The notes under the pieces were generated by a model that was not told the origin of the DNA, did no database searches, and saw nothing but the letters and a program-made list of their open reading frames with translations. This document shows, one piece after another, positions 21,120-49,200 of a DNA stretch of 64,000 bases. The stretch's first letter is position 1; the number at the start of each line of letters is the position of its first letter. The position numbers were made by a program, and so were the translations under genes. Source of the stretch: Odontesthes bonariensis. Lineage: Eukaryota > Chordata > Actinopteri > Atheriniformes > Atherinopsidae. The DNA is taken from the NCBI RefSeq assembly GCF_027942865.1, contig NC_134509.1, forward strand, positions 11,744,017 to 11,808,016. Direction: 5' to 3'.

Positions 21120-21150
<31 letters not shown>

Positions 21151-24879: not shown

Positions 24880-25679
24880 TTAAGTTAAAGATTTTACAAT
24901 AAAAGAATGAGGTTCAACGATGAGAGTAGAAGATACAAAAGCTCATTATGTTTGGAGGGCTAATCCTACAAACGTGTTGTATCACGTTAAATGTCAATCC
25001 AAAATTTACAGTTAATCTCTTTTCAGTTGGGTAACAGTGAAGTGGTGTCAACTGGACAGGATTTGTGTTCTTTATTTAATTGTCAATCTACGGTGGGCTA
25101 AATTATGAAACTAAATGAAAGAGAATATCACAAAATGCAGTTTAAAATGTCACTGTAGCAGTTTAAAAGCTTAAGATACTGAATTATACACCTTGGAAGT
25201 GTTCCCACCTTAAAAAAAAAATTACAATGGAAATCTCTTTCTTTTTTTAAAACAGAACACAAAAGTCAATATAGTTTCCATTTATGAAGTTTTAATTCAC
25301 AGATTCTACAGAAGATGATGAATGCTGATATACATTATTGACTAAGTCATGTTTATGAGTGAGGACGCACTCTGATTAGAAACAATGTGATTTGAATTTG
25401 AAATGAGAGAAGGCAAAATTGTGCAAAGTAGTTAAATGATGTCAAAGTTATCTTCTCAAAGATGATTTTTCAGTCACTCTCTCGTTTCTGATCACATTTC
25501 AGAATTTATTTTGTATTCTGAAGAAGTTGCTGGAGCAGGCGCTGGCTCAAACCCCACGATTTAAGTTTGTAAAGAGAAAAACTTAAACAGTCATAGATTC
25601 TCAATGAAATGTAAAAAGCAGATCAGAAAGTGTTGATTTCAGTTCACTCGTTTATTGATTTCCAGTAACATTTCAGTTT

Positions 25680-25950
25680 TCAGTTTTGAGCAGCAAGAAG
25701 TTGCTGGAGCAGGGTGAGAATCAGCTGGTTCAGAGATGATGCAGTAGTAGTAGCACCTTGTGCTGTAGTCGTAGCCTTAGTGGTGGTTGCCTTCAAGGAC
25801 ATCAGAAACGGTGCAATTAAACACACAGAAGAAGAAAGTTTTGTTCATTTCACAATGTGTGGTTTAATAGTAGGGGACAGAGAGGAGACTCACCTCATTT
25901 GAGTTCGAACCAGACTCAGAGCTCGAGCGAGCAAAACGCTGATGCTCCAT
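25680..25950 (-). pseudogene. Array copy A: truncated small SCPP-like gene without signal exon
   Basis: Contains the last two coding exons of the family: 25894-25950 (MEHQRFARSSSESGSNSNE) and 25680-25790 (ATTTKATTTAQ...LLAAQN-stop), both open and near-identical to copies C and D. The match to C/D runs from about 25,543 to 26,033 and then stops inside the intron where the signal-peptide exon should follow. No replacement signal exon or TATA promoter is visible. The next sequence instead resembles the far-upstream flank of copy B in inverted orientation. It is therefore a truncated copy, probably not expressed as a secreted protein. Confidence 0.75.
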
Positions 25951-26035
25951 CTGTAGAAAATGCATCAGGAGAAAATTTTCTGTTGTCTGCTTTATGTTTT
26001 ATTGAAGAATAATAGAAGCTGCACACGTAATTTCA

Positions 26036-28150
26036 AGGTGCTTTTTGAAATACTAAGACCAATGGATTTTTCTAAAATCCAAAAATAAGTATTTATTCTA
26101 CTTCATCTTACTTTAATTGTTCATATTTGAAATACTGACATTTCAAATAGTTAATGCAATAGTCAATTCAGTGCATTGATTATTATTTTTTAAATCTGAT
26201 GTTTTCTTTAGGTTTTTCTGCAATTCAAAAATAAATATTTCTTCTTCTTTTAGGAAAAACACAATCATACTGTGGTTGTACAGGTTCATACTTCACCCTA
26301 CTAACAAATTTGTAAACAGATGTCACATGCGGAAATGCCACATCCTATGATTAGAAATCAAGTGCATTAGTGGCTTGGGTAAGGTACAGGCAACACCCAT
26401 TGAAACTGCCATTTCTGCCTGTCTTCTCTTGTTTTGGAAAATACGTTGAGAATGTGACGCAAGACAAATACATGCTTACCAAGCAATGATCAAAGATCGC
26501 TTTTATAGAGTTTTATTTGCTTTCTGTCTGTGAAACTGTCATGCTTGTCATCATGTAATATTGCTCTGAAAAAGGATCAAAATCAAAAGCATGAAGGCAT
26601 GAATTGAAGTTCAACCTCAACTTTTGGACAGCTCTCTTTAGAATATTATCAACAACCCTCTGATGTGACATAAAACTCATTAAAAAGCTAATAACTGCGA
26701 GCTGACTGTTGAAACAATTAAACCACAATGCTAACAGTAACACTAGACAATTTGGCAAATTTTCTTGCTCTTTGTCTCCCACCACTCTCATAAAAACAAA
26801 TCTCCACGTTAGCCATGCAAATGTACAGCCACATCAATTTGTTGTCCTGTCAAAAAGGCCACGAACATGACACCAAAGCCAAGGAAATGTCAAGCAACAG
26901 CAAAGCAAAACAGTGCGGTGCAGGTCTGGAACCCTGGCACTATTGGGCATTATTGGGCAGCCCAGAAATGTACTTAAAAAGAGTCAATGTACTTTGAATC
27001 GAGTCAGATGCAAATAGTTTTAAGGTTCACAAACTTTGCTTAGTTGAAGTGAGGACTTTCTCTTGAAAACCTGTGTGTTCAAACAACTTTGTACTTGATT
27101 TGCTTGGTCGGAAGCAAATCAATTCGAAAGGCATGATCGCCCAAGTTTATAAGTTTGTTAGCAAACATTAGTTTTGGTCAAACTTTGGTTTCCTTCTGCA
27201 AAATGTATGCAGTAGATGCTATGGAAGTGTCTGCTTTTGTTTTTCTTAAGCCGTGATGATTCATTAAAACCTATCCAATTTGTTTTTAACGCCAAAACAG
27301 CACCAAGTAATTTCTTTGTATTATATTATTTAAATTTTATAATTAAACTTAATCGAACATTAACGAATGACAAAACCAACACAGTATTTTCCAACTTATA
27401 AATTCTGGACAAGAAAAAATTCTGACCCTCCTTGTCAACGGTTATGTGTAACTACTCAACTCCTATGGCCTCCAGACAGAGTTTGTTACTTGTTAAAGTT
27501 GGATATGACTCCTTCGTTGACAGTTGGATTAAATGCCATGACACTCTTTATCTATATACAGTTCATTTCTTGTCAAGGTTCATTTAACAAAAAGACAAAT
27601 CTATGTCACAGGACTCAAATTTGTGACATTTTCTGGAATTTACATGATTCTGTGTTGCATGTGCATAATTTCAAGCTTGAATGTGTCTTCGTTGCTTAAT
27701 AGTGTCAGCTGTAATGGATGAACTCTATTGTTTTGTCTTGAGCCACAGTAGCAACTTATTTCCTAAAACAAGAGAAGACGGGCCGAAATGCAAACTTCAC
27801 TGGGTGTTGCCGGTGACTTACCCTAACCACTAATGCACCTGGTTTCTAATCATAGGACAAGGTATTTCCATGTGTGACATCTGCTCGCAAGGTTTACTGG
27901 CAGGATTAAGTGTGGACCTGCACAACCACAGTATGATAATGCTCAGTGTTTTTCTCTAAAAGTGAAATTACTTATTTTGGATTTCAGATCAAATCTGATG
28001 GAACCTAGTATTTCATAAAGAAGTAATTAGATAAGCACAAGAAACCATTGTAATCCAGAGTTTTCAGTCTATAATCATTAGACACACATTGTGAAACATG
28101 GAGGATGAAAATTTCTTCATGAATTAAGTTTCCCAACAGCTCTGCTCTTC
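26036..28150. other. Intergenic with inverted upstream flanks of copies A and B
   Basis: Blocks at about 26,040-26,480 are recognisably inverted relative to 27,740-28,020: the AGTATTTC segment, the CAACACCCA-TTGAAACTGCCATTTCTG segment and the CAGATGTCACA segment. Copies A and B are thus divergent with mirrored upstream DNA at older divergence than the big palindrome. The centre (about 26,500-27,700) shows no gene. Confidence 0.5.
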
Positions 28151-28156
28151 TAACTG

Positions 28157-28233
28157 TATATAAGAGAAGTTCAGCATTCAGACCAACACTACAACAACCT
28201 CCTCGTCCATCTTTAAGACAGTCTGCTGAAACT
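28157..28233 (+). promoter_or_regulatory. TATA promoter and exon 1 of copy B
   Basis: TATATAAG at 28157-28164, then an untranslated exon from about 28,187 to 28233 containing CAACACTACAACAACCTCC, ending at a GTGAGTGC donor. The same layout occurs upstream of copies C, D, E and F. Confidence 0.75.
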
Positions 28234-28389
28234 GTGAGTGCTTCACTGCTATTGAATCAATATGTACTTTCAGTGTTTTCTGTGTAAGGTTGAATAGTGT
28301 TTTTTTTTTTTATTCACTTTCTCCAATTAGTTCATATGAGAAAGGTTTTTATTATTAACTTTGTTCCAACAGGTGTGATCACTGAAACC

Positions 28390-28848
28390 ATGCTGAAGAT
28401 TGCATTTATTCTCGGATGCCTCCTGAGCCTCATTTTGGCTCAACCTGTAAGTTTGATTTGATCATACTCAAAATTATTATCAACGATCATGTGTAGATAC
28501 CATTGTTATCGCAGTCATAAAGTACAGAAATACTAATACTATCAAACCTTCTACAGATGGAGCACCAGCGTTTTGCTCGCTCGAGCTCTGACTCTGGTTC
28601 TAATGAGGTGAGTGTTTCCTCTGTCCTGTGCAGTAAAACCACACATGAATGTTACTGTGAAATTTCCAGTACAGTCCTCTGCTGTAAGTTTGACAAGATT
28701 ATTACTGATTTTCTTGTAGGCCACATCTACATCACTAAATACACAACAGCTGCTCCAGCTCATTCTTGCCCTCCTTCAACGAACCACCACAACTACTGCT
28801 GCAACTACTACAGCTGCAACTACAGTTGCCACCACTGCTCCTAGATAA
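28390..28848 (+). CDS. Array copy B: small SCPP-like secreted protein (78 aa)
   Basis: Three phase-0 coding exons: 28390-28446 (signal peptide MLKIAFILGCLLSLILAQP), 28557-28607 (MEHQRFARSSSDSGSNE) and 28720-28848. The last exon starts ATSTSLNTQQLLQLILALLQ and continues as a Thr/Ala-rich tail ending TTAPR. SNE is an S-x-E phosphorylation site; the Thr run is a probable O-glycosylation target. A 3' UTR intron is likely (donor after 28880, acceptor before 28988), with AATAAA near 29,073. Its body mirrors copy E, but its promoter, exon 1 and first intron do not: they are closer to copy C in the promoter flank and unlike E/F in intron 1. It is probably a tooth, scale or skin matrix peptide; the orthologue is not assigned. 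Confidence 0.75.
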
Positions 28849-29689
28849 AGACAATCTGAATTGTCAACATGAGTCAGTTGGTGAGAGAAAACAGCTTTTG
28901 GATATATTTTTCACATTCACGTTGTTTCTGATCAGATTATCATGTTTTATTAATTATCCATAACTATAAACCTTTTTCTCATTTCAGATTTCAACACTGC
29001 TGCTGTACTCGGAGCGCTTCCTCTTTCATCCAAATGTGGATGAACTCTCATTAAAGTCAGCAGTAAATGACAAATAAACTCTATTAATGGAAAATATTTG
29101 AACTGTCTTTCATTTTTATTTTGAAACTGACATGTTTATTAGCAATGTTTGGTTTCGGAATATTGAAATAGTGGAAATGTTTTACCTCCAAATCTCCAAA
29201 TAACCATTTTATGAATTATAATGTAATGTTGAATTGATATAAAACGTCACTTACATTTCTTAGAAGTCCTAAAGAAGGACATAGAGTTGCTTGTCAAACT
29301 GAATTATTGGGTGCAGTGTATTTAAAGTCAAGGCTCTGAGCCTTATTTCAAAGACTGCAACATTTTGAAAAATGCTTAAAAGTGAACAGGCATCTGAAGG
29401 AGGTGTCTTTAAAGAGAAGGAAGTAGCAGTTACATGTCAGGCCAACCTAGTCTCACAGCAAAACATAAAATAGTCTTAAAGCCGAAATCATTCATGCTTA
29501 TTTATTTATTTTGTGTGAAATGAACTGGAACTTTTTAAGATGACATATTTCACAGGGCTGCTCCCAACTGAACAGTTGACAATTTGTAGCACTTTTATAA
29601 TAAATATATTCAGAGTTTGGGGCGGTATTGGGCTGACATGGTTAACATACAGTTAGACAAAAGGTTCACAGTTTGAATCTCATATTGTT

Positions 29690-29890
29690 TGAATCTGTTT
29701 GAAGTTTGCTTGGTGTCCTCTCGCGTGTGCAACTTCTCCCCAGGATTTTCCTCCAGACTTTCTCCCACAATTCAAACACATACATGCTAGGTTAATCAGT
29801 GATTCTAAATTGGCTGTAGGGGTAAGTGTGTGGTACAGGGTGTACCCTGACCCTTGCTCAAATGTAGCTTGTAGACTCCGGCCGTCCTTC
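29690..29890. repeat. Degenerate teleost interspersed repeat (left arm copy)
   Basis: Recognisable CTTCTCCCCAGGATTTTCCT...GGTTAATCAGTGATTCTAAA...GGGTGTACCCTGACC order of a widespread fish repeat. Present at the mirrored place in the right arm (41,950-42,150), so it predates the inverted duplication. Confidence 0.7.
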
Positions 29891-30322
29891 AAAAAATGAC
29901 TGATTTTTACCACACAATGTTAGCTGCATGTAGCTCTTCCATTAAGGCCCGCAGGTTGCACCACTCATTCCGACATCCCGCCATTCCGACAAGGCTTTCC
30001 ATAAAAGGAAATGTGGGTTACTCAACAGATAACAGTCCCTTCTTTCTGTTCATGCATTTTACATGTTTTAAGACAAGTTTAATTAATGCCTCTCCCCCTC
30101 TCTCTGCCTGTTATTCTTCAAAGCTGGTGATGTTTGAATGATATTAAATTGATACTGAATGATGATTTAAGGGTTAAATCTACAGTCAGAGGGAAGGATC
30201 AGGTGGATGTGGGCTTATTTTGGATTTTAGAAATAAAAATTAAAGATGATGGCACCCAGGATCTATCCATAAGGGCTGCGTTGTTACTATTCACTATAAA
30301 TCTGGTTAGTGCGTGTAACAGC

Positions 30323-30979
30323 TGTCATTCAATTCAATTCAATTCAAATTCAAAAATACTTTATTTATCCCAGAGGGAAATTAAATGTTGATGTAACTCA
30401 ATTAAATCAAGGAGTTATTATAGAGGCTGATGGCTGTGGGCAGGAGTGATTTCCTGTAGCGGTCCGTTTTGCATCCAAACTGAAGAAGCCTTTGACTGAA
30501 GAGACTCTGTTTTCCGATAACAGTCTCATGGAGAGGATGTTCAGGGTTGTCCATAATTCTCTTGATTTTATGCAAAATCCTTCTTTGCATTATTGTCTCC
30601 AGAGGTTCCACAGTCGTCCCCATAACAGAAGCAGCCTTCTTTATCAGGTTGTTGAGTCTTTTTAGGTCCCTGGTTCTGATGCTGCTGCCCCAACAGATGA
30701 CGCAAGAGGAAATGACGCTCTCAACAACAGACTTGTAGAAGATCTGCAAAATCTTGTTGCAAACCTTGAAGGACCTTAGCTTCCTCAAGAAGTACAGTCT
30801 GCTCTGTCCTTTCTTGTAGATGGCTTCACTGTTGTGTCTCCAGTCCAGTCTGTTGTCCACATGAACACCAAGGTATTTATATTCCTCAACAGCCTCCACT
30901 TCTTCTCCCATGATGGAAACAGGGTTTGATCTGACCCTGTTTCTCCTGAAATCTACAATCATCTCCTTTGTTTTGTCAT
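30323..30979 (-). mobile_element. 5'-truncated L2-like LINE fragment, left arm only
   Basis: The insert 30329-30973 is flanked by the duplication TGTCAT (30323-30328 and 30974-30979). On the minus strand it encodes the C-terminal part of a non-LTR reverse transcriptase, from DKTKEMIVDFRRNR through EEYKYLGVHVDNRLDW, SRLYFLRKLRSF and VICWGSSI to YRKSLLPTAISLYNNS. It ends with a tail of TTGAA units, as in L2-clade elements. The empty site is preserved in the right arm at about 40,620. The residues before DKTKE in the long open frame belong to the flanking DNA, not to the LINE. Confidence 0.88.
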
Positions 30980-33900
30980 GGAGGATACCGTCAGATCCTG
31001 ACAATGTCATGAGTCCGTTGTCATTTTCAAAATTTTCATTTGCAGCACCGGGACTTTCAACACAGGTGAACTGTCATTGATGTCTGTAATTGCAATTATT
31101 AATGTTGCATATGATGCCAGCGTGCAAAAGACGCATGGACTCTGTGGAGAGCTCTGCTCCAGCTGGCTGCTGTGACAGGTCACTGACGCTGTATTTCTGC
31201 TTAATCTAACATGTTTCAGACTCACCCGATTTACATAAATATCTGTATTTTGATATTTGAAATTTCAGGGGATTTTGATAATAATTTTCTTACAGTTGGT
31301 TTGTGAGGTTGTGGAGTTCCTCTAAAAAAAAAAAAGGCTTTAATAGGATATTAAAGGAATTATCGGAATGGCAGGATGTTTATAAAAAACAAACAAAAAC
31401 ATCCAACGATGGGAGAAAAAAAGTGTCGGAATGGCAGCATGTAACCCAGGCCCCCACCCCTTCTTCTCTCTTGTTCCAGTCTTAATGCTCATACACCCGG
31501 TTGATTACCATTTTATACACGTGAAAATGCTTGTTGAGACACTGCTGCAACTTTAGACTTTTTCTGGACCATATTTTTATTATTATTACTCTTTCCCCCA
31601 AAAAGCAGCTAACAAAAATGTATAAATTTAATGAACAAATCTTAATTAACCTCTCTGCCCCTGTTGGCTTCAAGCATACTGAAAGAATCCTTATCGTTGC
31701 ATTACTTGATCATAAGATGGCTGCCCTCACAAATTTGACCAACAAAATGAGAATTTTCACCAGATAAAACAACTTCAACCTTACAAATTTCGTGGTTGTT
31801 GAGTGACCGCTTACACAGTCATTTTTGCGGAAGACAGTTTGTTGCCATGTTTTCAACCGAAGAACATCCACATTGGCCAATATGTCCTGCCAGTGATCTG
31901 CTGTAACTGATCAATTTCCCAGTCTAATTACAAATTATCAACTACAAGACAGTAAAAATGTAAAAGTAAGTGAAAAGCCTTGGAAGGACATACCATCTCA
32001 GTCTCAGAAAGGTGAGGGTTACAAAACCATCTCTAAAGAGATCAGACTTCACTAATCCACAGTCAGACAGATTATGTGCAAATGGAGTAAATCTAAGGCC
32101 AACCATTAAAGATCACTCCCAGGACAAACTGTGTAACTCCGGGGTAATCTGTAAGCAATATAAGGCCTTAAGTTTTAATGCAACCTCACTTCTCACCCTT
32201 ACCTCCAGAGTCATTCACAGAGCCTCTTCTTTTGTCATCCAACCTGTTGCCACCTGTTGCTCTCCAGCTGAAAAATGACCAAAGTTTTACAGTGGGTAAA
32301 TTTTATTAAACTATGTCTAATTTCGTGATATCATTTTTGTCCCAGATTATTTTTTTAAATATGGAGAGTATGAAGGCGAAAACAGATTTGGTTCTTGTCA
32401 GCTGTTCTGGACCAAAAACGGTGCAAAGAAATAAAATGTCCATGTCAGAATTTCAATAACCATTACAAACGGGTGTCTGTGTATGAAGAATGCATGAAGT
32501 AAGTCTTTCTGCATCAGTACAATTCAAAGCGTATGGATTCAGTATGATGATACAGCTTTAAGGTGTTATTAATAAATAATTGGTTAAAATGGTTCAATCA
32601 ATATTTCAGCTGACTCAATTCGTCAGTAAGAAAGGTTTCTTACCACTGACATTTGTTTAAAATACATCTAACAAACAGACTAAGACACTGTTTTACTTTG
32701 AAGCACCTTAAAGCAACGTGAGAGAAGTTTGTGAACCTCATGTTATTCTGACTTGTCTTGATGTACCAAGAAGACCAGGAAGTGCACTTACTCAGGAGCA
32801 CATTGAGGCTCATGGTAATGTGGACTGAAAAGAAGATATTCATGTCTGTCACCTGAACTGTGAATATAGGGCAGGACCAAAATATTTTAAACGTCAACAT
32901 ATTTTGGAATCACAAATTTTGTTTTTAAAGATTTGTGAACATGTGTCGTCTCAGCTTACATACCTGATGTTCCTGTAAGAAGTGAGCATCTAGATTCAAT
33001 TTACCTTAAGTAGGAACTTCAGTAGCTTTAGACCAAAACATTTTACATGATGTCATTAAAGGTGTTACGGTACTTGGATTACACTGACGAAAGGTTAAAA
33101 GATGCTTGACTAAATTATTGAATGTTTGCTCACAAGTAGACCAAGTTTTCATGCTCTTGTATGCTTTTGGGATTTGCTTTATGAAATTTTTTCAAAAGGA
33201 GAAATTAAGTACATCCCAACTACCATTAAGCATCCTGGAAAGGTTACCCTATGAAACTGTAACTAACAAAGTTGTGTGAACCACTGTTACAGCTGAAGTG
33301 CAGGCTTTTAAGTTCAGATACATAAAAATAAGGCACTCTTTTCAATAAAATCTACATTATAGTAAGAACTGAACTGTAAACATCCAGGCTGAGATGCCTG
33401 TCCCACTTATTGTCAGCAATGGTGAGTCCACCAAGGAACATAAGGAATCCTCTTGTGACATTTAGCAGATTTTGATTCCAACAGCGTGAACTCTGTGACC
33501 ACTGTAACCAATTAAAACTTGCATAAAGAAAACACTCTCTGATCATTACACCAGCATAGCAACAGATTTCCAACAGAAAGAGGAGACAGAAATGCACGCG
33601 TCATTGGGTGTTACCTGTAACTTACCTCAACCACTAAACCAAATGTTTACAAAATTCCAATAGTCAAGCTCTGTTCTGAACCTGTATAAAATGGTTGCAT
33701 GCAGTGTTTTCTAACTATACTTGAATTAACTTTTTACCTTCAGTTATTTTCACATGTCAAAAATCTCCTCAAATTCGCTTCACCAGTGAACAGAAACCTA
33801 GCTCATGGTCCAAAGTAAACGTGTGCATTAATACATTTCTTTTAGCGGAAACACATGTAACACCGAGTTTTCTCAAGCTGTGGATGGTAAAATTGCTGCT

Positions 33901-34174
33901 TTGAATTAAGATAAATTTCTGCATGGGTAGTTTAGAGGATGAACTCTAGCAGTCTTTCCCACTGAAAGCAGCAACATGAAATGCATTCAAATACTGTAAG
34001 TACAGCTTTTGACCACAGAAGCCAGTAATCCTCCCCACTCCCACTCTTAGAGAGCACAATTTATCAATGTAATTCCAGGTTAATGTAATGTCTAATCATT
34101 GACACACGTTGAATCATGGGGTAGGAAGATTTCTAAATGAATTAGGTTTCCCAACAGTTCTGCTTCTCTAACTG

Positions 34175-34254
34175 TATATAAGACCAGTTCAACATTCAGA
34201 GCAACACTACAACAACCTCCTTCTTGTCCATCTGTGAGATTGTCATCTGAATCT
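34175..34254 (+). promoter_or_regulatory. TATA promoter and exon 1 of copy C
   Basis: TATATAAG at 34175-34182 and an untranslated exon from about 34,203 to 34254, ending before GTGAGTGC. Mirror-identical in layout to copy D. Confidence 0.78.
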
Positions 34255-34410
34255 GTGAGTGCTTTACAGTAATCTTATAGATATTTAGCTTCTGGATTGT
34301 CTGTGTGAGGATGTCATTGTATCATTTTTTATCATTTGCTTGGTCTAATGTGTTAATTCGAGACTGTTTTTATTATTAAAACTGTTCCAACAGGTGTGAT
34401 CACTGAAACC

Positions 34411-34858
34411 ATGCTGAAGCTTGCACTTGTTCTTGGATGCCTCCTGAGCCTCACTCTGGCTCAGCCTGTAAGTGTGATATTACCATACTCAGCATCATTA
34501 TCAGCAATTACGTGTGCAGCTTCTATTATTCTTCAATAAAACATAAAGCAGACAACAGAAAATTTTCTCCTGACGCATTTTCTACAGATGGAGCATCAGC
34601 GTTTTGCTCGCTCGAGCTCTGAGTCTGGTTCGAACTCAAATGAGGTGAGTCTCCTCTCTGTCCCCTACTATTAAACCACACATTGTGAAATGAACAAAAC
34701 TTTCTTCTTCTGTGTGTTTAATTGCACCGTTTCTGATGTCCTTGAAGGCAACCACCACTAAGGCTACGACTACAGCACAAGGTGCTACTACTACTGCATC
34801 ATCTCTGAACCAGCTGATTCTCGCCCTGCTCCAGCAACTTCTTGCTGCTCAAAACTGA
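34411..34858 (+). CDS. Array copy C: small SCPP-like secreted protein (74 aa)
   Basis: Coding exons 34411-34467 (MLKLALVLGCLLSLTLAQP), 34588-34644 (MEHQRFARSSSESGSNSNE) and 34748-34858 (ATTTKATTTAQGATTTASS then LNQLILALLQQLLAAQN-stop), all phase 0. AATAAA follows at 34881. The ATG lies 17 bases into the exon after a consensus acceptor. Mature residues comprise a short basic/aromatic start (HQRFAR), a Ser/acidic cluster with two S-x-E sites, a Thr-rich stretch and a hydrophobic Leu/Gln helix at the C-terminus. In copies B, E and F the order of the Thr stretch and the Leu helix is reversed. It looks intact. Function is inferred from the SCPP-type architecture and location only. Confidence 0.78.
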
Positions 34859-35289
34859 AAACTGAAATGTTACTGGAAATCAATAAACGAGTGAACTGAA
34901 ATCAACACTTTCTGATCTGCTTTTTACATTTTTTTGAGAATCTATGACTGTTTAAGTTTTTCTCTTTTCAAACTTAAATCATGGGATTTGAACCAGTGCT
35001 TGCTCTCTTTCAGTCATCAGTGCTCACTATTGTCTGCAGCATCTTAGAAATCAACATCATAAAAAGAAATTGTGCAGACTCTGGGGTATCTTTTCTTTAA
35101 AACTAGTATATATTATCCATTAGAGACTCTGAGTCCTTTTGAACCTTAAAGAATTGGAAATATTTTTTCTAAAGTTCCCTTTCTTAAGTAACAGTTTGTT
35201 CATAAACACATCTCTATTGATTATTTGCTGTATTGTTACATTTCAAAGTGATTATTAATGGTTAAGAGTCAGTCAATATTTTTAAATTA

Positions 35290-36310
35290 AGAAAAATAAT
35301 TCTATCACAGACACAGCATGTCTACCACTTCAGATGTGCAAATAATTTTATAATCACAGAATAAGATATTAAAAACCATGACAACTCTGGAAAGGAGACA
35401 CCACTTTTTCTATCTTTTTACATGGTTTTGTGAAATTCTTGAATGCCCATTGGATCATGATTAGATTTTGTACTCCTATTTGCATTTACATGCCACATAT
35501 TGCAGTTTGACACTTCCAGATATCTTAAAATACACAAATTTTCTGTCCAAAGGTATTCATTAGTTTCTGACTTCATGAAAAATAGTCAGGTTTCCTCAGG
35601 ACAAATGTATCTGAGCCTGTCAACCACACCACAGACATTCAGGTCATTTAATAACTATAGTAATATTTTCTCACCTGAATTCACTGAGACTCCCTTGTTA
35701 ATGCTTGGATTAAGGTTAGGCCATTTTGAGGTGAAGTTTGGATTATTATTTATTCTAAAACTCAACTTTAATCTGTTCTTCTCCAGAACTGACCTGTTTA
35801 CAGAGCTGCTTGGTCTCCAATGTGCTGCTTTCTCACTGGTGTTGGCAAGCCTGGGCCCTTTCACAAGTGCATTACTGAGATCATGTGAAACTTGGGGGAC
35901 TTAACTGAAAGTTAACTTGTATTTTTCATTTTTTTAGAATCTGTGAAAATAAATTTTTATTCAGTCCCACTTCAACAACATGGATTATGTTGTGTATGCT
36001 CATCACAAACACAAAAAATCCATACTGCAACCGTTTCAGGTTGTAAAGTCACCAGGCAGAAAAAATGCCAAAAGGGAGTATATTTGTACAAAAGGGAATC
36101 AAACTTTTGAAAAACCTACCTAATACCAAAAATTGCTGCTCCTGTCAGGATGCCAGTTTTAGTCCTGGCATTTGAAGAAATTATAGTTCCTTTTCTTTTC
36201 TGTTCAGATAAGATTCACAGGATAAAGAGGTTCAAAGAACAATCTTTGAACAACCAGAACAAATGGCACCGTTTCGGCTGTACTGATTTCTTAACACAAA
36301 GAATATTTAC
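35290..36310. other. Spacer of the giant inverted repeat
   Basis: About 1 kb of AT-rich DNA unique between the arms. It contains one open stretch of 134 codons (35,500-35,904, plus) with no signal peptide, splice context or recognisable domain; I do not call it a gene. Confidence 0.6.
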
Positions 36311-36754
36311 CCACTCTCCATTAATAATCATTTCGAAATGTAACAATACAGCAAATAATCAACAGTGATGTGTTCATGACCAAACTGTTGTATGTTCTAA
36401 ACCTTTTATCAAAGGTTTGTATGGTGCTACGTAAGGGAACTGAAGAAAAAATATTTCCAATTCTTTAAGGTTCAAAAGGACTCAGAGTCTCTAATGGATA
36501 ATATATACTAGTTCAAAGAAAATATATCCCAGAGTCTGCACGATTTCTTTTTATGAAGTTGATTTCTAAGATGCTGCAGACAATAGTGAGCACTGATGAC
36601 TGAAAGAGAGCGAGCACTGGCTCAAACCCCACGATTTAAGTTTGAAAAGAGAAAAACTTAAACAGTCAAAGATTCTCAATGAAATGTAAAAAGCAGATCA
36701 GAAAGTGTTGATTTCAGTTCACTCGTTTATTGATTTCCAGTAACATTTCAGTTT

Positions 36755-37202
36755 TCAGTTTTGAGCAGCAAGAAGTTGCTGGAGCAGGGTGAGAATCAGC
36801 TGGTTCAGAGATGATGCAGTAGTAGTAGCACCTTGTGCTCTAGTCGTAGCCTTAGTGGTGGTTGCCTTCAAGGACATCAGAAACAGTGCAATTAAACACA
36901 CAGAAGAAGAAGGTTTTTTTCATTTCACAATGTGTGGTTTAATAGTAGGGGACAGAGAGGAGACTCACCTCATTTGAGTTCGAACCAGACTTGGAGCTCG
37001 AGCGAGCAAAACGCTGATGCTCCATCTGTAGAAAATGCGTCAGGAGAAAATTTTCTGTTGTCTGCTTTATGTTTTATTGAAGAATAATAGAAGCTGCACA
37101 CGTAATTGCTGATAATGATGCTGAGTATGGTAATATCATACTTACAGGCTGAGCCAGAGTGAGGCTCAGGAGGCATCCAAGAACAAGTGCAAGCTTCAGC
37201 AT
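36755..37202 (-). CDS. Array copy D: small SCPP-like secreted protein (74 aa)
   Basis: Mirror of copy C: coding exons 37146-37202, 36969-37025 and 36755-36865. The signal peptide is identical to C. Two coding differences are visible: the Ser cluster reads SSSKSGSNSNE (Glu to Lys, removing one S-x-E site but keeping SNE), and one Thr in the tail is Arg (ATTRAQG). All splice sites and the stop are kept, so it is probably functional. Facing copy C tail to tail across the spacer, it could give antisense overlap if either transcript read through. Confidence 0.78.
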
Positions 37203-37430
37203 GGTTTCAGTGATCACACCTGTTGGAACAGTTTTAATAATAAAAACGGATTCTAATTAACACATTAGACCAAGCAAATGATAAAAAATGATACAATGAC
37301 ATCCTCACACAGACAATCCAGAAGCTGAATATCTATAAGATTACTGTAAAGCACTCACAGATTCAGATGACAATCTCACAGATGGACAAGAAGGAGGTTG
37401 TTGTAGTGTTGCTCTGAATGTTGAACTGGT

Positions 37431-37438
37431 CTTATATA
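37431..37438 (-). promoter_or_regulatory. TATA box of copy D
   Basis: Minus-strand TATATAAG, mirror of the copy C promoter, followed by the same CAACACTACAACAACCTCC leader sequence in exon 1. Confidence 0.78.
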
Positions 37439-40400
37439 CAGTTAGAGGAGCAGAACTATTGGGAAACCTAATTCATTTAGAAATCTTCCTACCCCATGAT
37501 TCAACGTGTGTCAATGATTAGACATTACATTAACCTGGAATTACATTGATAAATTGTGCTCTCTAAGAGTGGGAGTGGGGAGGATTACTGGCTTCTGTGG
37601 TCAAAAGCTGTACTTACAGTATTTGAATGCATTTCATGTTGCTGCTTTCAGTGGGAAAGACTGCTAGAGTTCATCCTCTAAACTACCCATGCAGAAATTT
37701 ATCTTAATTCAAAGCAGCAATTTTACCATCCACAGCTTGAGAAAACTCGGTGTTACATGTGTTTCCGCTAAAAGAAATGTATTAATGCACACGTTTACTT
37801 TGGACCATGAGCTAGGTTTCTGTTCACTGGTGAAGCGAATTTGAGGAGATTTTTGACATGTGAAAATAACTGAAGGTAAAAAGTTAATTCAAGTATAGTT
37901 AGAAAACACTGCATGCAACCATTTTATACAGGTTCAGAACAGAGCTTGACTATTGGAATTTTGTAAACATTTGGTTTAGTGGTTGAGGTAAGTTACAGGT
38001 AACACCCAATGACGCGTGCATTTCTGTCTCCTCTTTCTGTTGGAAATCTGTTGCTATGCTGGTGTAATGATCAGAGAGTGTTTTCTTTATGCAAGTTTTA
38101 ATTGGTTACAGTGGTCACAGAGTTCACGCTGTTGGAATCAAAATCTGCTAAATGTCACAAGAGGATTTCTTATGTTCCTTGGTGGACTCACCATTGCTGA
38201 CAATAAGTGGGACAGGCATCTCAGCCTGGATGTTTACAGTTCAGTTCTTACTATAATGTAGATTTTATTGAAAGAGTGCCTTATTTTTATGTATCTGAAC
38301 TTAAAAGCCTGCACTTCAGCTGTAACAGTGGTTCACACAACTTTGTTAGTTACAGTTTCATAGGGTAACCTTTCCAGGATGCTTAATGGTAGTTGGGATG
38401 TACTTAATTTCTCCTTTTGAAAAAATTTCATAAAGCAAATCTCAAAAGCATACAAGAGCATGAAAACTTGGTCTACTTGTGAGCAAACATTCAATAATTT
38501 AGTCAAGCATCTTTTTACCTTTTGTCAGTGTAATCCAAGTACCGTAACACCTTTAATGACATCATGTAAAATGTTTTGGTCTAAAGCTACTGAAGTTCCT
38601 ACTTAAGGTAAATTGAATCTCGATGCTCACTTCTTACAGGAACATCAGGTATGTAAGCTGAGACGACACATGTTCACAAATCTTTAAAAACAAAATTTGT
38701 GATTCCAAAAAATGTTGACGTTTAAAATATTTTGGTCCTGCCCTATATTCACAGTTCAGGTGACAGACATGAATATCTTCTTTTCAGTCCACATTACCAT
38801 GAGCCTCAATGTGCTCCTGAGTAAGTGCGCTTCTTGGTCTTCTTGGTACATCAAGACAAGTCAGAATAACATGAGGTTCACAAACTTCTCTCACGTTGCT
38901 TTAAGGTGCTTCAAAGTAAAACAGTGTCTTAGTCTGTTTGTTAGATGCATTTTAAACAAATGTCAGTGGTAAGAAACCTTTCTTACTGACGAATTGAGTC
39001 AGCTGAAATATTGATTGAACCATTTTAACCAATTATTTATTAATAACACCTTAAAGCTGTATCATCATACTGAATCCATACGCTTTGAATTGTACTGATG
39101 CAGAAAGACTTGTACTTCATGCATTCTTCATACACAGACACCCATTTGTAATGGTTATTGAAATTCTGACATGGACATTTTATTTCTTTGCACCGTTTTT
39201 GGTCCAGAACAGCTGACAAGAACTAAATCTGTTTTCGCCTTCATACTCTCCATATTTAAAAAAATAATCTGGGACAAAAATCATATCACGAAATTAGACA
39301 TAGTTTAATAAAATTTACCCACTGTAAAACTTTGGTCATTTTTCAGCTGGAGAGCAACAGGTGGCAACAGGTTGGATGACAAAAGAAGAGGCTCTGTGAA
39401 TGACTCTGGAGGTAGGGTGAGAAGTGAGGTTGCATTAAAACTTAAGGCCTTATATTGCTTACAGATTACCCCGGAGTTACACAGTTTGTCCTGGGAGTGA
39501 TCTTTAATGGTTAGCCTTAGATTTACTCCATTTGCACACAATCTGTCTGACTGTGGATTAGTGTAGTCTGATCTCTTTAGAGATGGTTTTGTAACCCTCA
39601 CCTTTCTGAGACTGAGATGGTATGTCCTTCCAAGGCTTTTCACTTACTTTTACATTTTTACTGTCTTGTAGTTGATAATTTGTAATTAGACTGGGAAATT
39701 GATCAGTTACAGCAGATCACTGGCAGGACATATTGGCCAATGTGGATGTTCTTCGGTTGAAAACATAGCAACAAACTGTCTTCCGCAAAAATGACTGTGT
39801 AAGCGGTCACTCAACAACCACGAAATTTGTAAGGTTGAAGTTGTTTTATCTGGTGAAAATTCTCATTTTGTTGGTCAAATTTGTGAGGGCAGCCATCTTA
39901 TGATCAAGTAATGCAACGATAAGGATTCTCTCAATATGCTTGAAGCCAACAGGGGCAGAGAGGTTAATTAAGATTTGTTCATTAAATTTATACATTTTTG
40001 TTAGCTGCTTTTTGGGGGAAAGAGTAATAATAATAAAAATATGGTCCAGAAAAAGTCTAAGGTTGCAGCAGTGTCTCAACAAGCATTTTCCCGTGTATAA
40101 AATGGTAATCAACCGGGTGTATGAGCATTAAGACTGGAACAAGAGAGAAGAAGGGGTGGGGGCCTGGGTTACATGCTGCCATTCCGACACTTTTTTTCTC
40201 CCATCGTTGGATGTTTTTTTTGTTTTTTATAAACATCCTGCCATTCCGATAATTCCTTTAATATCCTATTGAAGCCTTTTTTTTTTTTAGAGGAACTCCA
40301 CAACCTCACAAACCAACTATAAAAAATCCCCTGAAATTTCAAATATCAAAATACAGATATTTATGTAAATCGGGTGAGTCTGAAACATGTTAGATTAAGC

Positions 40401-40795
40401 AGAAATACAGTGTCAGTGACCTGTCACAGCAGCCAGCTGGAGCAGAGCTCTCCACAGAGTCCATGCGTCTTTTGCACGCTGGCATCATATGCAACATTAA
40501 TAATTGCAATTACAGACATCAATGACAGTTCACCTGTGTTGAAAGTCCCGGTGCTGCAAATGAAAATTTTGAAAATGACAACGGACTCATGACATTGTCA
40601 GGATCTGATGGTATCCTCCATGACAGCTGTTACACGCACTAACCAGATTTATAGTGAATAGTAACAACGCAGCCCTTATGGATAGATCCTGGGTGCCATC
40701 ATCTTTAATTTTTATTTCTAAAATCCAAAATAAGCCCACATCCACCTGATCCTTCCCTCTGACTGTAGATTTAGCCCTTAAATCATCATTCAGTA

Positions 40796-41689
40796 AAACC
40801 TGACTTTTGTGAGCTTTGCACTGGTAAATGTTCCGATCAAATTGATTAGATGCTTTTAAGTATATCTGCATATGCCTGGTGGGCCAGTGTCCATCGAGCT
40901 ATCTGAAATAAAGAAGCTGTGTGATTCGACTAGTCACCTTGGCAACGGGGAAGAGGAGGGGCTACGTTTTTCACCAACCTCGAATTGGAAATCTTAATGC
41001 GCTCATACGGCGAGTTTCAATACGTTTTTAGAAATAAGTGCAACACCGTTGCAGCAGCAAAAGTGTAAGTTTAAATGTAGTCCTTTGCAATCACAATAAT
41101 ATTACAGGGAAACTGCTTGAATGGTAGCCCATTCATTTATTTCATTTAGGTGCAATCCCGCAGGGGAGAAGCGCTCTTGGCAGCAGTTTAAGATGAAATA
41201 TAAAAACATTGTTCAAACAGGTGAGACCTCGGCATGGAGGTACCTCATTTTGATCATGTTTTACACTGTAAAATAAATATTAAGTGGCTTCTCATCTATA
41301 CCATCCATCCATCCATTATCTATACACCGCTGAATCCGTCAGTCGGGTCGTGGGGGGGCTGGAGCCTATCCCAGCGGTCAATGGGCAAGAGGCGGGGTAC
41401 ACCCTGGACAGGCCGCCAGTCCATCACAGGGCCACATAGAGACAAACGAGACAAACAACCATACACACTCACAGTCACTCTGAAGGACAATTTAGAGTCA
41501 TCATCTATATCATGTTCTGTTAAATAATTAAGCCTATTTAAACAAACACAGACTTCTACTGAGCCAACAGAAAGAAGGCAGATGCCCGTAAAACGGGTGG
41601 TGGCCACCACCTCTAACGGGAGGGCAGTGGCTGAGGGAATCCCCGGAGGGAGTCCACCCCCAAGACACGAGTGCCTTTATAAAATATAA
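40796..41689 (+). mobile_element. DNA transposon fragment with Myb/SANT-like exons, right arm only
   Basis: Absent from the mirrored site near 30,150-30,160. Plus-strand segments read LELEILMRSYGEFQYVFRNK (about 40,980-41,075), CNPAGEKRSWQQFKMKYKNI (about 41,150-41,215) and ANRKKADARKTGGG (about 41,565-41,610). Together they form the Myb/SANT-type DNA-binding domain common in PIF/Harbinger-associated proteins of fish, with introns between. A common interspersed repeat (41,300-41,520) sits in the last intron. No terminal repeats or clear target duplication (at most TA) were found. It is a fragment, not a complete gene. Confidence 0.7.
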
Positions 41690-42993
41690 TCAATTTAATA
41701 TCATTCAAACATCACCAGCTTTGAAGAATAACAGGCAGAGAGAGTGGGAGAGGCATTAATTAAACTTGTCTTAAAACATGTAAAATGCATGAACAGAAAG
41801 AAGGGACTGTTATCTGTTGAGTAACCCACATTTCCTTTTATGGAAAGCCTTGTCGGAATGGCGGGATGTCGGAATGAGTGGTGCAACCTGCGGGCCTTAA
41901 TGGAAGAGCTACATGCAGCTAACATTGTGTGGTAAAAATCAGTCATTTTTTGAAGGACGGCCGGAGTCTACAAGCTACATTTGAGCAAGGGTCAGGGTAC
42001 ACCCTGTACCACACACTTACCCCTACAGCCAATTTAGAATCACTGATTAACCTAGCATGTATGTGTTTGAATTGTGGGAGAAAGTCTGGAGGAAAATCCT
42101 GGGGAGAAGTTGCACACGCGAGAGGACACCAAGCAAACTTCAAACAGATTCAAACAATATGAGATTCAAACTGTGAACCTTTTGTCTAACTGTATGTTAA
42201 CCATGTCAGCCCAATACCGCCCCAAACTCTGAATATATTTATTATAAAAGTGCTACAAATTGTCAACTGTTCAGTTGGGAGCAGCCCTGTGAAATATGTC
42301 ATCTTAAAAAGTTCCAGTTCATTTCACACAAAATAAATAAATAAGCATGAATGATTTCGGCTTTAAGACTATTTTATGTTTTGCTGTGAGACTAGGTTGG
42401 CCTGACATGTAACTGCTACTTCCTTCTCTTTAAAGACACCTCCTTCAGATGCCTGTTCACTTTTAAGCATTTTTCAAAATGTTGCAGTCTTTGAAATAAG
42501 GCTCAGAGCCTTGACTTTAAATACACTGCACCCAATAATTCAGTTTGACAAGCAACTCTATGTCCTTCTTTAGGACTTCTAAGAAATGTAAGTGACGTTT
42601 TATATCAATTCAACATTACATTATAATTCATAAAATGGTTATTTGGAGATTTGGAGGTAAAACATTTCCACTATTTCAATATTCCGAAACCAAACATTGC
42701 TAATAAACATGTCAGTTTCAAAATAAAAATGAAAGACAGTTCAAATATTTTCCATTAATAGAGTTTATTTGTCATTTACTGCAGACTTTAATGAGAGTTC
42801 ATCCACATTTGGATGAGAGAGGAAGCGCTCCGATTACAGCAGCAGTGTTGAAATCTGAAATGAGAAAAAGGTTTATAGTTATGGATAATTAATAAAACAT
42901 GATAATCTGATCAGAAACAACGTGTATGTGAAAAATATATCCAAGAGCTGTTTTCTCTCACCAACTGACTCATGTTGACAATTCAGATTGTCT

Positions 42994-43452
42994 TTATCTA
43001 GGAGCAGTGGTGGCAACTGTAGTTGCAGCTGTAGTAGTTGCAGCAGTAGTTGTGGTGGTTAGTTGAAGGAGGGCAAGAAGGAGCTGGAGCAGCTGTTGTG
43101 TATTTGTAGATGTAGATGTGGCCTACAAGAAAATCAGTAATAATCTTGTCAAACTTATGGCAGAGGACTGTACTGGAAATTTCACAGTAACATTCATGTG
43201 TGGTTTTACTGCACAGGACAGAGGAAACACTCACCTCATTAGAACCAGACTCAGAGCTCGAGCGAGCAAAACGCTGGTGCTCCATCTGTAGAAGGTTTGA
43301 TAGTATTAGTATTTCTGTACTTTATGACTACGATAACAATGGTATCTACGCATGATTGTTGATAATGATTTTGAGTATGATCATATCAAACTTACAGGTT
43401 GAGCCAAAATGAGACTCAGGAGGCATCCGAGAATAAATGCAATCTTCAGCAT
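42994..43452 (-). CDS. Array copy E: small SCPP-like secreted protein (78 aa)
   Basis: Coding exons 43396-43452 (signal peptide identical to copy B), 43235-43285 (MEHQRFARSSSESGSNE) and 42994-43122, which starts ATSTSTNTQQLLQLLLALLQ and continues with a Thr/Ala tail ending TTAPR. All phase 0 and open. Compared with B the Ser cluster has Glu instead of Asp, giving an extra S-x-E site. Exon 1, intron 1 and promoter are F-like, so E is a mosaic: F-like at the 5' end and B-like from exon 2 onward. The 3' UTR intron and polyA site mirror B. Confidence 0.76.
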
Positions 43453-43661
43453 GGTTTCAGTGATCACACCTGTTGGAACAAGGAAATGAAAGATTTTCTC
43501 AGGTGAACAAATAAGTCCAAGTAATTATAAGAATGTACTTCACCATCCTCAAAAATGGAAAAATATGAAAATAAAGATTCATATTATCATGATAAAGTCC
43601 TCACAGTTTCAGCAGATGAACAAGGAGGTTGTTGTAGTGTTGCTCTGAGTGTTTAACTGGT

Positions 43662-43699: not shown

Positions 43700-45130
43700 T
43701 TGATCATTAAGAAATCTTCCACCTCCAGATTTCAAGGTGGGAACAATGGTGACAAACAGAAACTACATCTGGATAGGATTATATGGCTATATTGAACTCA
43801 TGTAATAGCTGCTATCGAAATACTAAGATCCGTCCAGTGTGTTTGTCATGTTTTACCACTGTTGTGTTGGTTCATTCTCCACCCTCATCAACTATTTGGT
43901 AAATAGATGCCACACATGAAAACACCTGATCGTCATTACACATCAAGCAATTTAGTGCTTTGGGTAATACCCAGTGCAGTTTGCATTTCTCTTTGTCTTT
44001 ACTTTGTTTTAGAAACTTTTTGCTGAACTGACAAAAGATTCTCTAACACATGTAAATGTACATTTCATTCACATGAGAGTTTTTCAACCAGGCATCACTG
44101 AAGCAGTGCCTGAAGTAAAACAGAGGTTGTTTGATATAAAATTTCCAACAACTTGAACAAGAAAATGCATTTTCAGTGAAAAAGTGGTGTGCATGCTGAG
44201 CGCTGAATGAATTCCTTTAAAACTTTATGAGCTGAACAGCAACAGTGGAAGAATTTAATTCTGAATATATTGTTTAATTAACGGGAATATCATGAAATCT
44301 CACGAGTTATTGTATGAGACTATAAGGTTCTTAGATGTTCACATAGGTGGAAGGAGAAATGATTAGATCATAGATTGGAGCTCTTTGGAGATTTTTTGCT
44401 TATTAACTTGTGCTCATTGCAGGAAGGTCATGTAGTTCAGGTTAGGTAGCATGTAGTGTTCCACCAACATTTATGGGTGCCTTCATGATGAGGAGTATAT
44501 TGTGTGTCGCGGCCTTTTAAGTTTACAAATGATATTTTCCAACAAAGGCTGTGGGTGGCAGCAGGTGGTTGTGTTCTTGCATGCACTTCAGTTTGTTAAA
44601 AAATATATGTAGTTTATTTTTTAACAACAAAAAAACTATGAACAAAACAATAACAAAAAATTTCTTACAATTTGGATGAAAACGAAAGTTAACTTATTTT
44701 GATTTAACAAGATCTAAAAGTGGTCAAAAAATCATTCAACCACCACCTCCCGTCCTCACATCGGACATTTGAAAAGAGCCCCTGGTGTGTTCTTAATCTG
44801 TCTGATTAATGGGCGGGTCTAAAAGTCACCAAAATAATTTAAACAATCTCAAATACAAAAATGAACCCCAGATCTTGACTCCAAATCAACCAAAGTATAT
44901 TCCAATATCCCAAAGAAAACCAAACCTATAGAACCCATGACTTACAAAACATAAATGGCCATAACATTGTGTTTTTGTGTGATGTGACATTTGGGGCCTT
45001 TATTTGGACAACCTGATAGTATCCTGATTCATACTGAAGCCAGTATAGAACACATTTCCAGCATAAAGAACGATAAACTGAGAGTAGTCATGCACTTGAT
45101 TGGAGATGACTTTTTAACACAAATTTGATT
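43700..45130. other. Intergenic upstream of copy E
   Basis: Holds the upstream block common to the array at about 43,900-44,020 (AGATGCCACACATGAAA, then ATTTAGTG and CAGTTTGCATTTCT). No gene recognised in the remainder. Confidence 0.5.
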
Positions 45131-46292: not shown

Positions 46293-49200
46293 TTAAACAT
46301 TGAGGCAGCGTGGATGCAGGTGGGTGGAGAGTCTTAGCCAAGGATGGAGCTGTAGCTGCTCTAGTGTAGCCCGTTTCTCAGGGTCTACGTTCAGACACAG
46401 CTGCAAGAAATCCAGGCAGTCTGGAAAGCAGGAAACAGAAGGAGAGCGGGGGTTTAGGTGGCATCACATTTGTTTATGTGTAAATTTGCAAGTATGTATT
46501 CGCTTTATTTGCTACATGAGTAGAACATATAATATTTTCTACATTTGTTCAAATTTACAACAGAGTGACAAGATGATCTATGTTTTTATGAACACAAGCT
46601 CTGTGTGGCTGTGTGCTACCCAGTGATAGACTCCAGTTGACTTCATTCCACCCGTAGTAGTACGTTGGAGTAGAAAATGGCTCCTGATGATCCAGCAGTT
46701 CGTACAGCAGTGCTCCCAGCTGCCACACTGTGGTGGGAGCAGCCCGGTACTCTCCCTTCAGGAAGTACTCTGGAGGTGCATAGAGGCGAGTTCCTTGAAT
46801 ACATACAGACAGATGGAGACAGTCAATAAGAAATTACAGAGGAAGAAGCCTTGTTTTAACAGAATATGTTTCTTTTCAAAGGTTGAGGAAAAGAAATGGA
46901 TATCCTACCACTGTATCTACGGTACGGTTCCTCACTCACTAAACAGCCACAGCCAAAATAAATGACTCGGACACGTGGGACATCAGATTCTGTTGTGATG
47001 AGGATGTTGTCTACCTTGATGTCTCTGTGAAAGACTCCATTTGAGTGCATTTCAAAGGCAGCATCCACTATCTGCCTGAAGATGACCTGTGAAAGAAGAA
47101 GAGTGATACAGTTAGGACTGAGATGGCGTTGGTGGAAGTTGGTGAGTACTGGGGCTTTCAGTTGTGCAGGTCTGATGATGGGTCAACACTTACATCCTAA
47201 ATACGTAATCTATGTGACTCTTGTTTCCTGTACACGTGGAGTGTGAATTTCAACTCGACGTTCACGATTAGAAAATACAAGAAATTCAACTCTGTATGAG
47301 CCTCATTAACCTTAAACCTCAGTACCATGGCATCAGCTTCCTCCAGATAGCCTCCTTTTCTCCTGCGGTACGTGTGCAGATCAACGCAGGGGACTGGTCT
47401 TTCCATGACCAGGATAACTTCATCCTCTAGATCAAAGTGGTCCAAAAGAGTTATAGCAGCACACCTTCCAGATGACTCAACTCCACCTGCTGCTTTCACC
47501 ATGAGGGCGACTTCTGCACTGAGCTTATCCACATCATGAGACTAAGAGCAAAAAACACAAACAAAATATTTAAAACGTCCTCTAGATTAAAAAGATCAGA
47601 AGGAGATCCGCCAATATTTGCTTTGCACAATCTTACAATAAAATGACTAACATTATGTCTGAGCTTATTTCAACATTTTCTGTTTGGACACTGATGTAAT
47701 CACTTACCTTTTGTGTGCAGCAAACCCTTTCTTTTGGGAGGTGTTTGATGGCCACCTGAAGACAGAAACACACGTTACTTCGGTTTTCTAAGAATAGAGT
47801 GTCTGTATAATAGCCTGTGTGTGTGTCTGGTGTGTGTGAAAGAGCAAAAATAAAATAATCATGTAAGACTTACTGGCACAGCCTCTGTTCTACTGTAGCC
47901 TGCATACACAGACCCACAACCACCTTTCCCGATGATGAAGATCTCTATATACCTGGCTTCAAATTCAGCTGCAGAGACAAACATGCATGTTTTAATATTA
48001 CTATCATTTACCTCTTGATCACATCACAGTATCCAACACTTCAGCCTTGTGGTGCTTTTGTGCCTTTTTGCTGAGATGGGAAGACAAATGTCACCCTCAT
48101 GTCTTTACAGAAAAAGTAAAACCCCTGTCAGCAGCTGGTTAGCTTAGCTTAGTCTCCTCAGTGTCAGAGGTGCTGCTAGGTGGTGTTCCAGAGGTTGTGC
48201 TGAACTCAGCTAATCAGCTGCTGCTTGAGAAGAACAACCATCCCTTTGCAGTTTAATTGAACTTTCTTTCACTCTGTCAGCTCACCTCGACTAGTCTTCG
48301 CTGGGAAGGGCATGTCATACAGTTTCTTCACATGTGAGGGTGAATGAATGCTGCTCTTGATCTTCCTCTCATTGCCACTATCCATCACGATGATGTTGGG
48401 GTCACGTGAAACTTTGCTACCCCATATCTTTTTATTTGGGTTTTCTTTAGCCAGGTCAGCCTTCCTCTTGCTTCCTCTCACCCTGGAACCATCTGATTTA
48501 GAAGTGATGAGGAAACTGCTGTTGGTCTCACAGTCACCCCTCATTTTTTTCTTTGGGGGCTCTTTATCACAGCTGGGCTTCCTTTTGTTCCTCAGCGCTT
48601 TGGCATCATCCATCGTGTTGTAGGCTGGATTTCTGGTATCAGAGATGCCTGAAAGGAAGCGAAGCACACAGTGGACACGTATATATTGACAGTATATAGC
48701 AAAGTAACAAAGACAAATACTGTCTTTTGTACTTCTTTCCTTTTATCTGGTAACTTTAAGCTAATTGTGATAAAAGGAAATCATTCAATGAATAATAGAA
48801 CATAGTTTTGAAATAACAAATTATGTTACAGGTTATAATAGTAGTTTCCAACTATTATGTGCTATTGATGTTTTAAAAAAGTGATCAGGGTGACATTTCA
48901 AATGTTTAGTGGTTTTCCCTCTTAATTTCTCAACAGGTTTGAAGTACCAGACGAAAGCTCTCAGACTTATATGATGTCCCTGCTGTTAAAACTGTATGCG
49001 ACATTTAATCGTGCATACCTGTATCTGAAGCCCTTTTATAAGAGTACTTTGACTTGAAATGAATTATTTTTACGTTGCTGTGTTTGTGCATTTATGTAAT
49101 TAAGGATGTGAATACTATGTCCACCACGCTCTGTAACTATGTAATGGTCATCCCGTCAACATGTTAGCTTCTCCCTCTGACACCGCAACTCTTCCTAAAC

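Follow-up and report, generated by a model that had tools for sequence, protein, structure and literature searches.

A gene-bearing palindrome in an SCPP gene cluster of Odontesthes bonariensis

The palindrome and its genes

The window analysed here is a stretch of 64,000 nucleotides from the fish Odontesthes bonariensis (NC_134509.1; C4:11,744,017-11,808,016), which lies within a 43.25-Mb contig of a genome assembly of 945 Mb in 187 contigs (GCF_027942865.1) and contains no N. In its middle, two inverted arms flank a spacer of about 1 kb, and four small SCPP-like genes, named B, C, D and E, are arranged two per arm (Table 1; positions are those of the window). The palindrome is a real, recent, gene-bearing inverted duplication. 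A first-pass annotation of the sequence had described two near-identical arms of this kind and had proposed a self-comparison with percent identity scored along them; self-BLAST and block alignment recovered the inverted arms and showed that their identity was uneven. The size of about 6.27 kb per arm, which had been estimated after removal of one insertion from each, agreed with the 6.28 and 6.27 kb measured without the private pieces, and the inner end then given for the left arm, 35,290, was within about 20 bases of the measured 35,269.

Self-BLAST paired 28,092-30,153 with 43,734-41,689, 30,153-30,328 with 40,795-40,620, and 30,974-35,181 with 40,625-36,433 (minus strand; 98.3% over 4,210 columns). 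When the arms were aligned as three blocks with the private pieces excluded, 92 mismatches were counted in 6,236 aligned bases (1.5%), corresponding to 98.5% identity, together with nine gap events of 1-35 columns each, some of them at the ragged inner edge. The outer edge of strong identity was at 28,366/43,476 or a few bases further out, which in genes B and E is the 3' end of intron 1, directly before the acceptor of exon 2. Beyond this edge, the flanks of B and E were alike only as old paralogues. The inner end was a gradual fade near 35,269/36,310, and inspection by eye revealed no evident homology beyond the arm at the inner join. A genome search with the spacer (query 35,291-36,309) returned 16 matches, of which one was full-length and the other 15 were short and 67-76% alike. 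The window plus 100 kb on each side (264 kb, with 78 N in the flanks) served as a local control for palindrome frequency; apart from the two blocks of the palindrome and the pairing of gene B with gene F, a copy outside the palindrome, it contained no inverted pair reaching 1 kb and 85% identity. It was on this local scale that the statement of the first-pass annotation on the rarity of such palindromes outside sex chromosomes was checked.

Each arm carried one private piece. The insert of the left arm had TGTCAT on both sides, and its empty site was present in the right arm. This insert gave 2,071 candidates in the genome at first look, and the 39 other copies that were scored were all 98% identical. 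Its open frame received the Pfam label ALKBH8_N, which is common on the reverse transcriptase ends of long interspersed nuclear elements (LINEs). Judged from the open frame and a repeated AATTC end rather than from a repeat library, the insert is probably the 3' end of a LINE. The extra piece of the right arm may be either an insertion in that arm or a deletion from the left one.

Genes B, C, D and E were open, with consensus splice sites predicted from sequence (the exon 4 acceptor of C was picked among nine candidates, and that of D likewise). They followed one plan of three coding exons with introns between codons, namely one for the signal peptide, a short acidic one rich in Ser, and a last one encoding a Leu-rich stretch and a Thr-rich part; the coding parts of exons 2 and 3 were 57 bases, and 51 or 57 bases. 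A TATA motif, AACTGTATATAAGA, situated 220-240 bases before the ATG, and a first-exon motif were present in B to F and absent from A, a truncated copy. The hallmarks of SCPP genes are an untranslated exon 1, a signal peptide with a few mature residues on exon 2, introns between codons, and a Ser-x-Glu phosphorylation motif near the N terminus. Genes B to F showed this exon plan (signal peptide judged by eye, exon 1 inferred), and the Ser-x-Glu motif SNE was found in all five proteins. SSE also occurred in C and E, and in D a K replaced its Glu. Exon plan, splice sites and motifs agree with the two small SCPP-like genes per arm of the first-pass annotation, which was right about the four palindrome genes but did not mention the truncated A, the further copy F, or the chimeric nature of B, whose 5' end lies outside the palindrome.

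Table 1. Features of the palindrome and related sequences in the window (aa, amino acids).
Feature	Position	Strand	Description
Left arm	28366-35269	+	self-BLAST, block alignment; orientation from other SCPP-like genes
Spacer	35270-36309		genome search
Right arm	36310-43476	-	self-BLAST, block alignment
Gene B	28390-28848	+	coding exons 28390-28446, 28557-28607, 28720-28848; 78 aa; chimeric
Gene C	34411-34858	+	coding exons 34411-34467, 34588-34644, 34748-34858; 74 aa
Gene D	36755-37202	-	coding exons 37202-37146, 37025-36969, 36865-36755; 74 aa
Gene E	42994-43452	-	coding exons 43452-43396, 43285-43235, 43122-42994; 78 aa
Identical run	29060-30096		1,037 bp, zero mismatches between arms; likely conversion tract
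Identical run	33446-34154		709 bp, zero mismatches between arms; likely conversion tract
Left-arm insert	30331-30974 (about)		abundant-repeat piece; probably LINE 3' end
Right-arm extra piece	40795-41694 (end about)		self-BLAST, block alignment
Gene F	51771-52235	-	coding exons 52235-52179, 52068-52018, 51893-51771; 76 aa; open B/E-type copy outside palindrome
A	25533-26032	-	truncated C/D copy; exons 3 and 4 only; exon 1, TATA box and exon 2 motifs absent
Gene G	17806-18334	-	diverged, same plan (exons: signal peptide, short, Thr-rich)
Gene H	14575-15040	-	diverged, same plan; acidic serine-rich exon
Recurring short sequence	26217-26468, 27732-27988, 33557-33637, 37976-38056, 43905-44015, 51029-51202		old repeat or shared upstream element

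An exon with the Pfam domain SPARC_Ca_bdg was located at C4:11,814,738, 6.7 kb to the right of the window, and two exons scored above the cut-off there. Genome-wide, the domain gave 13 matches in several places, another of them on the same contig at 10.47 Mb. From its neighbours, we infer that this SPARC-domain gene is sparcl1. The position of the palindrome next to these exons agrees with the cluster around sparcl1 and supports the SCPP cluster proposed by the first-pass annotation. Cluster position, exon plan, protein character, the several small copies, and reported copy variation together indicate that the palindrome genes are most likely scpp3. According to passages of a survey of 63 teleosts, the number of scpp3 genes "varies considerably", with three or more in most actinopterygians (PMC13367325), and a passage of PMC10932694 lists eight copies in gilthead bream, six in stickleback, and two in spotted parrotfish. 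The same sources, in the parts cited, assign scpp3 to tooth formation. The layer is given as the inner dental epithelium for fugu in a passage of PMC10568847, where similar sequences of medaka are said to be annotated as non-coding RNA, and as the outer dental epithelium in PMC13367325. If the genes are scpp3, the tooth is favoured in the earlier suggestion of tooth or scale genes, and scales become less likely. To judge from the family, the proteins are probably small, secreted, phosphorylated and Thr-rich, and made in the tooth-forming epithelium. Pfam scores remained below cut-off for B (MUCL1, 24.6 of 35 bits) and C (New_glue, 20.5 of 31 bits; MUCL1, 18 of 35 bits). Of six window frames that were SCPP-like or otherwise neither kinase nor repeat, five had no Pfam match, which carries no weight because such proteins have little conserved sequence.

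Divergence between the arms and recombination among gene copies

Divergence per 500-base bin, from the outside toward the spacer, was 2.8% in the first bin, 0-1.2% in the following nine, and then 1.6, 2.8 and 10.2%. The profile was U-shaped, lowest mid-arm and highest at both ends, which fits a palindrome under conversion, as do two runs without a single mismatch between the arms (Table 1), both of them outside the coding exons. When the mismatches were placed at random, a longest run at least as long as the observed one appeared in 0 of 20,000 trials for the whole arm (P = 0.0002 without the inner edge), and a second run as long as the one observed never arose in 20,000 trials, whether the inner edge was kept or dropped. 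Conversion tracts must lie within the homology, so the ends are covered least and a U-shaped profile would be expected to follow. These results indicated that arm-to-arm gene conversion after the duplication, which had been suggested before, is likely: its signs are present, and conversion is their probable cause.

The gene units differed between the arms more than the middle did (34/1,471 vs 27/4,397 differences, P = 3e-7), an excess that we ascribe to their place, because the genes sit at the arm ends. Within these units, the differences were 11/463 in coding sequence and 12/488 and 11/520 in non-coding sequence. The proportions of nonsynonymous and synonymous differences (pN/pS) were 0.029/0.031 for B-E (5 and 2 changes) and 0.018/0.017 for C-D (3 and 1 changes); with pN equal to pS at few sites, these pairs gave no evidence that the proteins are constrained or positively selected. 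Protein selection as the source of the extra gene divergence was set aside as unnecessary, because the non-coding parts differed as much and pN equalled pS. GC-biased conversion was rejected as well, since the GC content of the identical runs was the same as that of the mid-arm.

From the TATA motif to the end of intron 1, B was 67.7% alike to E and 67.2% alike to F, while E and F shared 97.5%. Over the next 280 bp, the values were 97.5% for B-E, 98.6% for B-F, and 96.8% for E-F. Gene B is a chimera with a foreign 5' end outside the palindrome, because its likeness to E and F jumps from 67-68% to 97-99% at the end of intron 1. The likeness of B to F fell again past about 28,985, so that the B-F tract spans about 620 bp with two small indels inside. 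Copy A was 98.0% alike to C and 97.6% alike to D, a likeness confined to 500 bp. Edges as sharp as those of the B-F tract and of A, lying within homologous genes, are of the kind left by ectopic gene conversion or recombination. The outer edge of the palindrome coincides with one of them, which suggests pairing of homologous, oppositely oriented genes, and recombination between scpp3-like genes probably set this edge.

A, D, E, F, G and H, as well as P/Q-rich open frames at 10-12 kb and 59 kb, were all on the minus strand; the P/Q-rich frames are candidate SCPP genes from their composition alone. The left arm is probably the inverted copy, because the other SCPP-like genes read minus and B and C are the odd ones. 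In genome searches, all six matches of gene C DNA and all 14 matches of the gene B protein fell within the window. Among the 40 of 232 candidates for gene B DNA that were scored (192 unscored), six matches were in the window, and the other 34 covered query bases 1,325-1,631 only, a dispersed repeat. No further B or C copy was found outside the window by these searches, which distant members like G and H escape, as would a distant scpp3 elsewhere in the genome.

Origin of the palindrome

We consider it likely that the locus arose by a recent inverted segmental duplication in a sparcl1-linked teleost SCPP cluster, followed by arm-to-arm conversion. The duplication would have doubled a two-gene scpp3-like block, E and D keeping the native strand and B and C forming the inverted copy, and the result would have been a palindrome around a unique spacer of 1 kb. 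The outer join, which falls where intron 1 of an older gene of the family ends, most likely goes back to homologous invasion involving two scpp3-like genes of opposite orientation, and the inner join was probably sealed by end joining or by template switching. Conversion between the arms would then have evened out the middle, and the gene-bearing ends, lying under fewer tracts, would have drifted. The extra genes probably add dosage of a secreted Thr-rich protein of the tooth epithelium.

Several points weigh against this history. The run test assumes even mutation, and local constraint or mutation coldspots could mimic its outcome. Gene position is the same as arm edge, so the extra divergence of the gene units could come from outside paralogues. 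The identical runs showed no rise in GC (37.2% and 37.7%, vs 37.1% mid-arm), and the private inserts have persisted in the homogenised middle. Furthermore, the scpp3 assignment draws on position, exon plan and protein character and not on a match to a named scpp3, and the evidence comes from one assembled genome.

An assembly artefact, in which the locus was folded back on itself or two haplotypes were joined in opposite orientation, is very improbable. Allelic divergence in some fishes reaches a range that includes 98.5% identity. However, a fold-back would yield identical arms and no spacer, whereas here the arms differed by 92 mismatches and nine gap events of 1-35 columns, each had a private piece, one of them with target-site repeats and an exact empty site, and the spacer had one full-length match in the genome. 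Moreover, B and E were only 67.7% alike before exon 2, which marks them as paralogues and not alleles, and the window is free of N in a contig of 43.25 Mb. An inverted duplication without later conversion, in which divergence is uneven because the duplication steps differ in age or because mutation itself was uneven, is unlikely. The bodies of B, E and F were roughly equidistant (13, 16 and 21 differences in 614), as were those of C, D and A (10, 12 and 14 in 500), as would be expected from one burst. But change-free stretches of 1,037 and 709 bp flanked by 1-3% divergence within one continuous arm, and a B-F tract with sharp edges on both sides, argue for conversion.

That the gene units diverge because they receive changes from the outside copies F and truncated A, or because divergence is favoured by selection, is possible, though on balance we doubt it; either would be compatible with duplication followed by conversion. 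Of the 16 sites (in 614) at which B and E differ, 12 had the same base in B and F; C matched A at each of the six differing sites in 34,620-34,773, and D matched A at six of seven in 34,823-34,992, an apparent order along the gene. The gene units also differed more than 30,098-33,445 alone (34/1,471 vs 26/2,681, P = 0.0009). Against this stand the confounding of gene position with arm edge and, for selection, the non-coding parts of the gene units, which differ as much as the coding ones, with pN = pS. It is quite unlikely that the palindrome is a selected local conversion device, with a homogenised middle and edge genes that import the coding bodies of their neighbours and keep different promoters. 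Such a device would account for gene B, in which the promoter and first exon were unlike those of E and F and the coding body was nearly the same. If it existed, tooth-matrix genes would exchange protein and expression pattern separately, and repeated palindromic doubling would help explain the variable scpp3 number among teleosts.

The duplication with later conversion that we favour resembles the palindromes of mammalian sex chromosomes, in which genes likewise occur in pairs on inverted arms around a spacer, and in which conversion between the arms has left its signs. Those palindromes exceed 10 kb (in a passage of PMC5997626) and 99% identity (in a passage of PMC8981503) and carry testis genes, whereas the arms here measured 6.3 kb, were 98.5% identical, and carried tooth-matrix-like genes; "giant", the word of the first-pass annotation, was therefore too strong. 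The lack of a GC rise in the identical runs is counted as a further difference. The present genes share with the published teleost scpp3 of SCPP cluster Ia the sparcl1 cluster, several small copies, and a number known to vary, but the published passages describe neither a palindrome nor gene conversion, and here there is a palindrome. The main text of PMC13367325 contains "palindrom" 0 times and "gene conversion" 0 times, and literature searches gave no palindromic SCPP array in the titles or abstract openings of the papers listed. Why scpp3 number varies is still to be explained, according to a passage of PMC10932694. This locus offers one concrete route to such a change, inverted duplication joined inside homologous genes plus conversion. 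It is of interest as a mechanism for variation in a family already known as variable, and not as a system of a new kind. Other toothed teleosts would be predicted to have palindromic or mosaic scpp3 arrays, and caution is suggested for scpp3 copy counts and orthology from short reads.

Other elements in and near the window

Protein kinase exons were present inside the SCPP cluster, on the minus strand at 46,555-47,541; Pfam Pkinase scored 39 bits for 46,856-47,182 and 24.8 bits, below the cut-off, for 46,555-46,833. We assume that this kinase may be one of the expanded PIM-like kinases of fishes. At 20,174-22,049, an open frame preceded an element of 918 bp that forms an inverted repeat with itself (92%, 20,756-21,673). 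The frame presumably resembles a transposase-derived protein, and 20,174-20,770 had no Pfam match. A second self-complementary element (90%) was located at 58,150-58,811, and part of it recurred in inverted orientation (518 bp, 91%) about 146 kb further left. To the right of the window and before the SPARC exons, a single open frame of 218 aa, rich in Gly and Gln and without a Pfam match (L019:4445-5101, or 68,445-69,101 on the scale of the window), is possibly scpp9b, a single-exon gene reported for acanthomorphs in a passage of PMC13367325. In addition, five of the six copies of the recurring short sequence in Table 1, which were 67-81% alike, were situated upstream of A to E, and the sixth was situated downstream of F.

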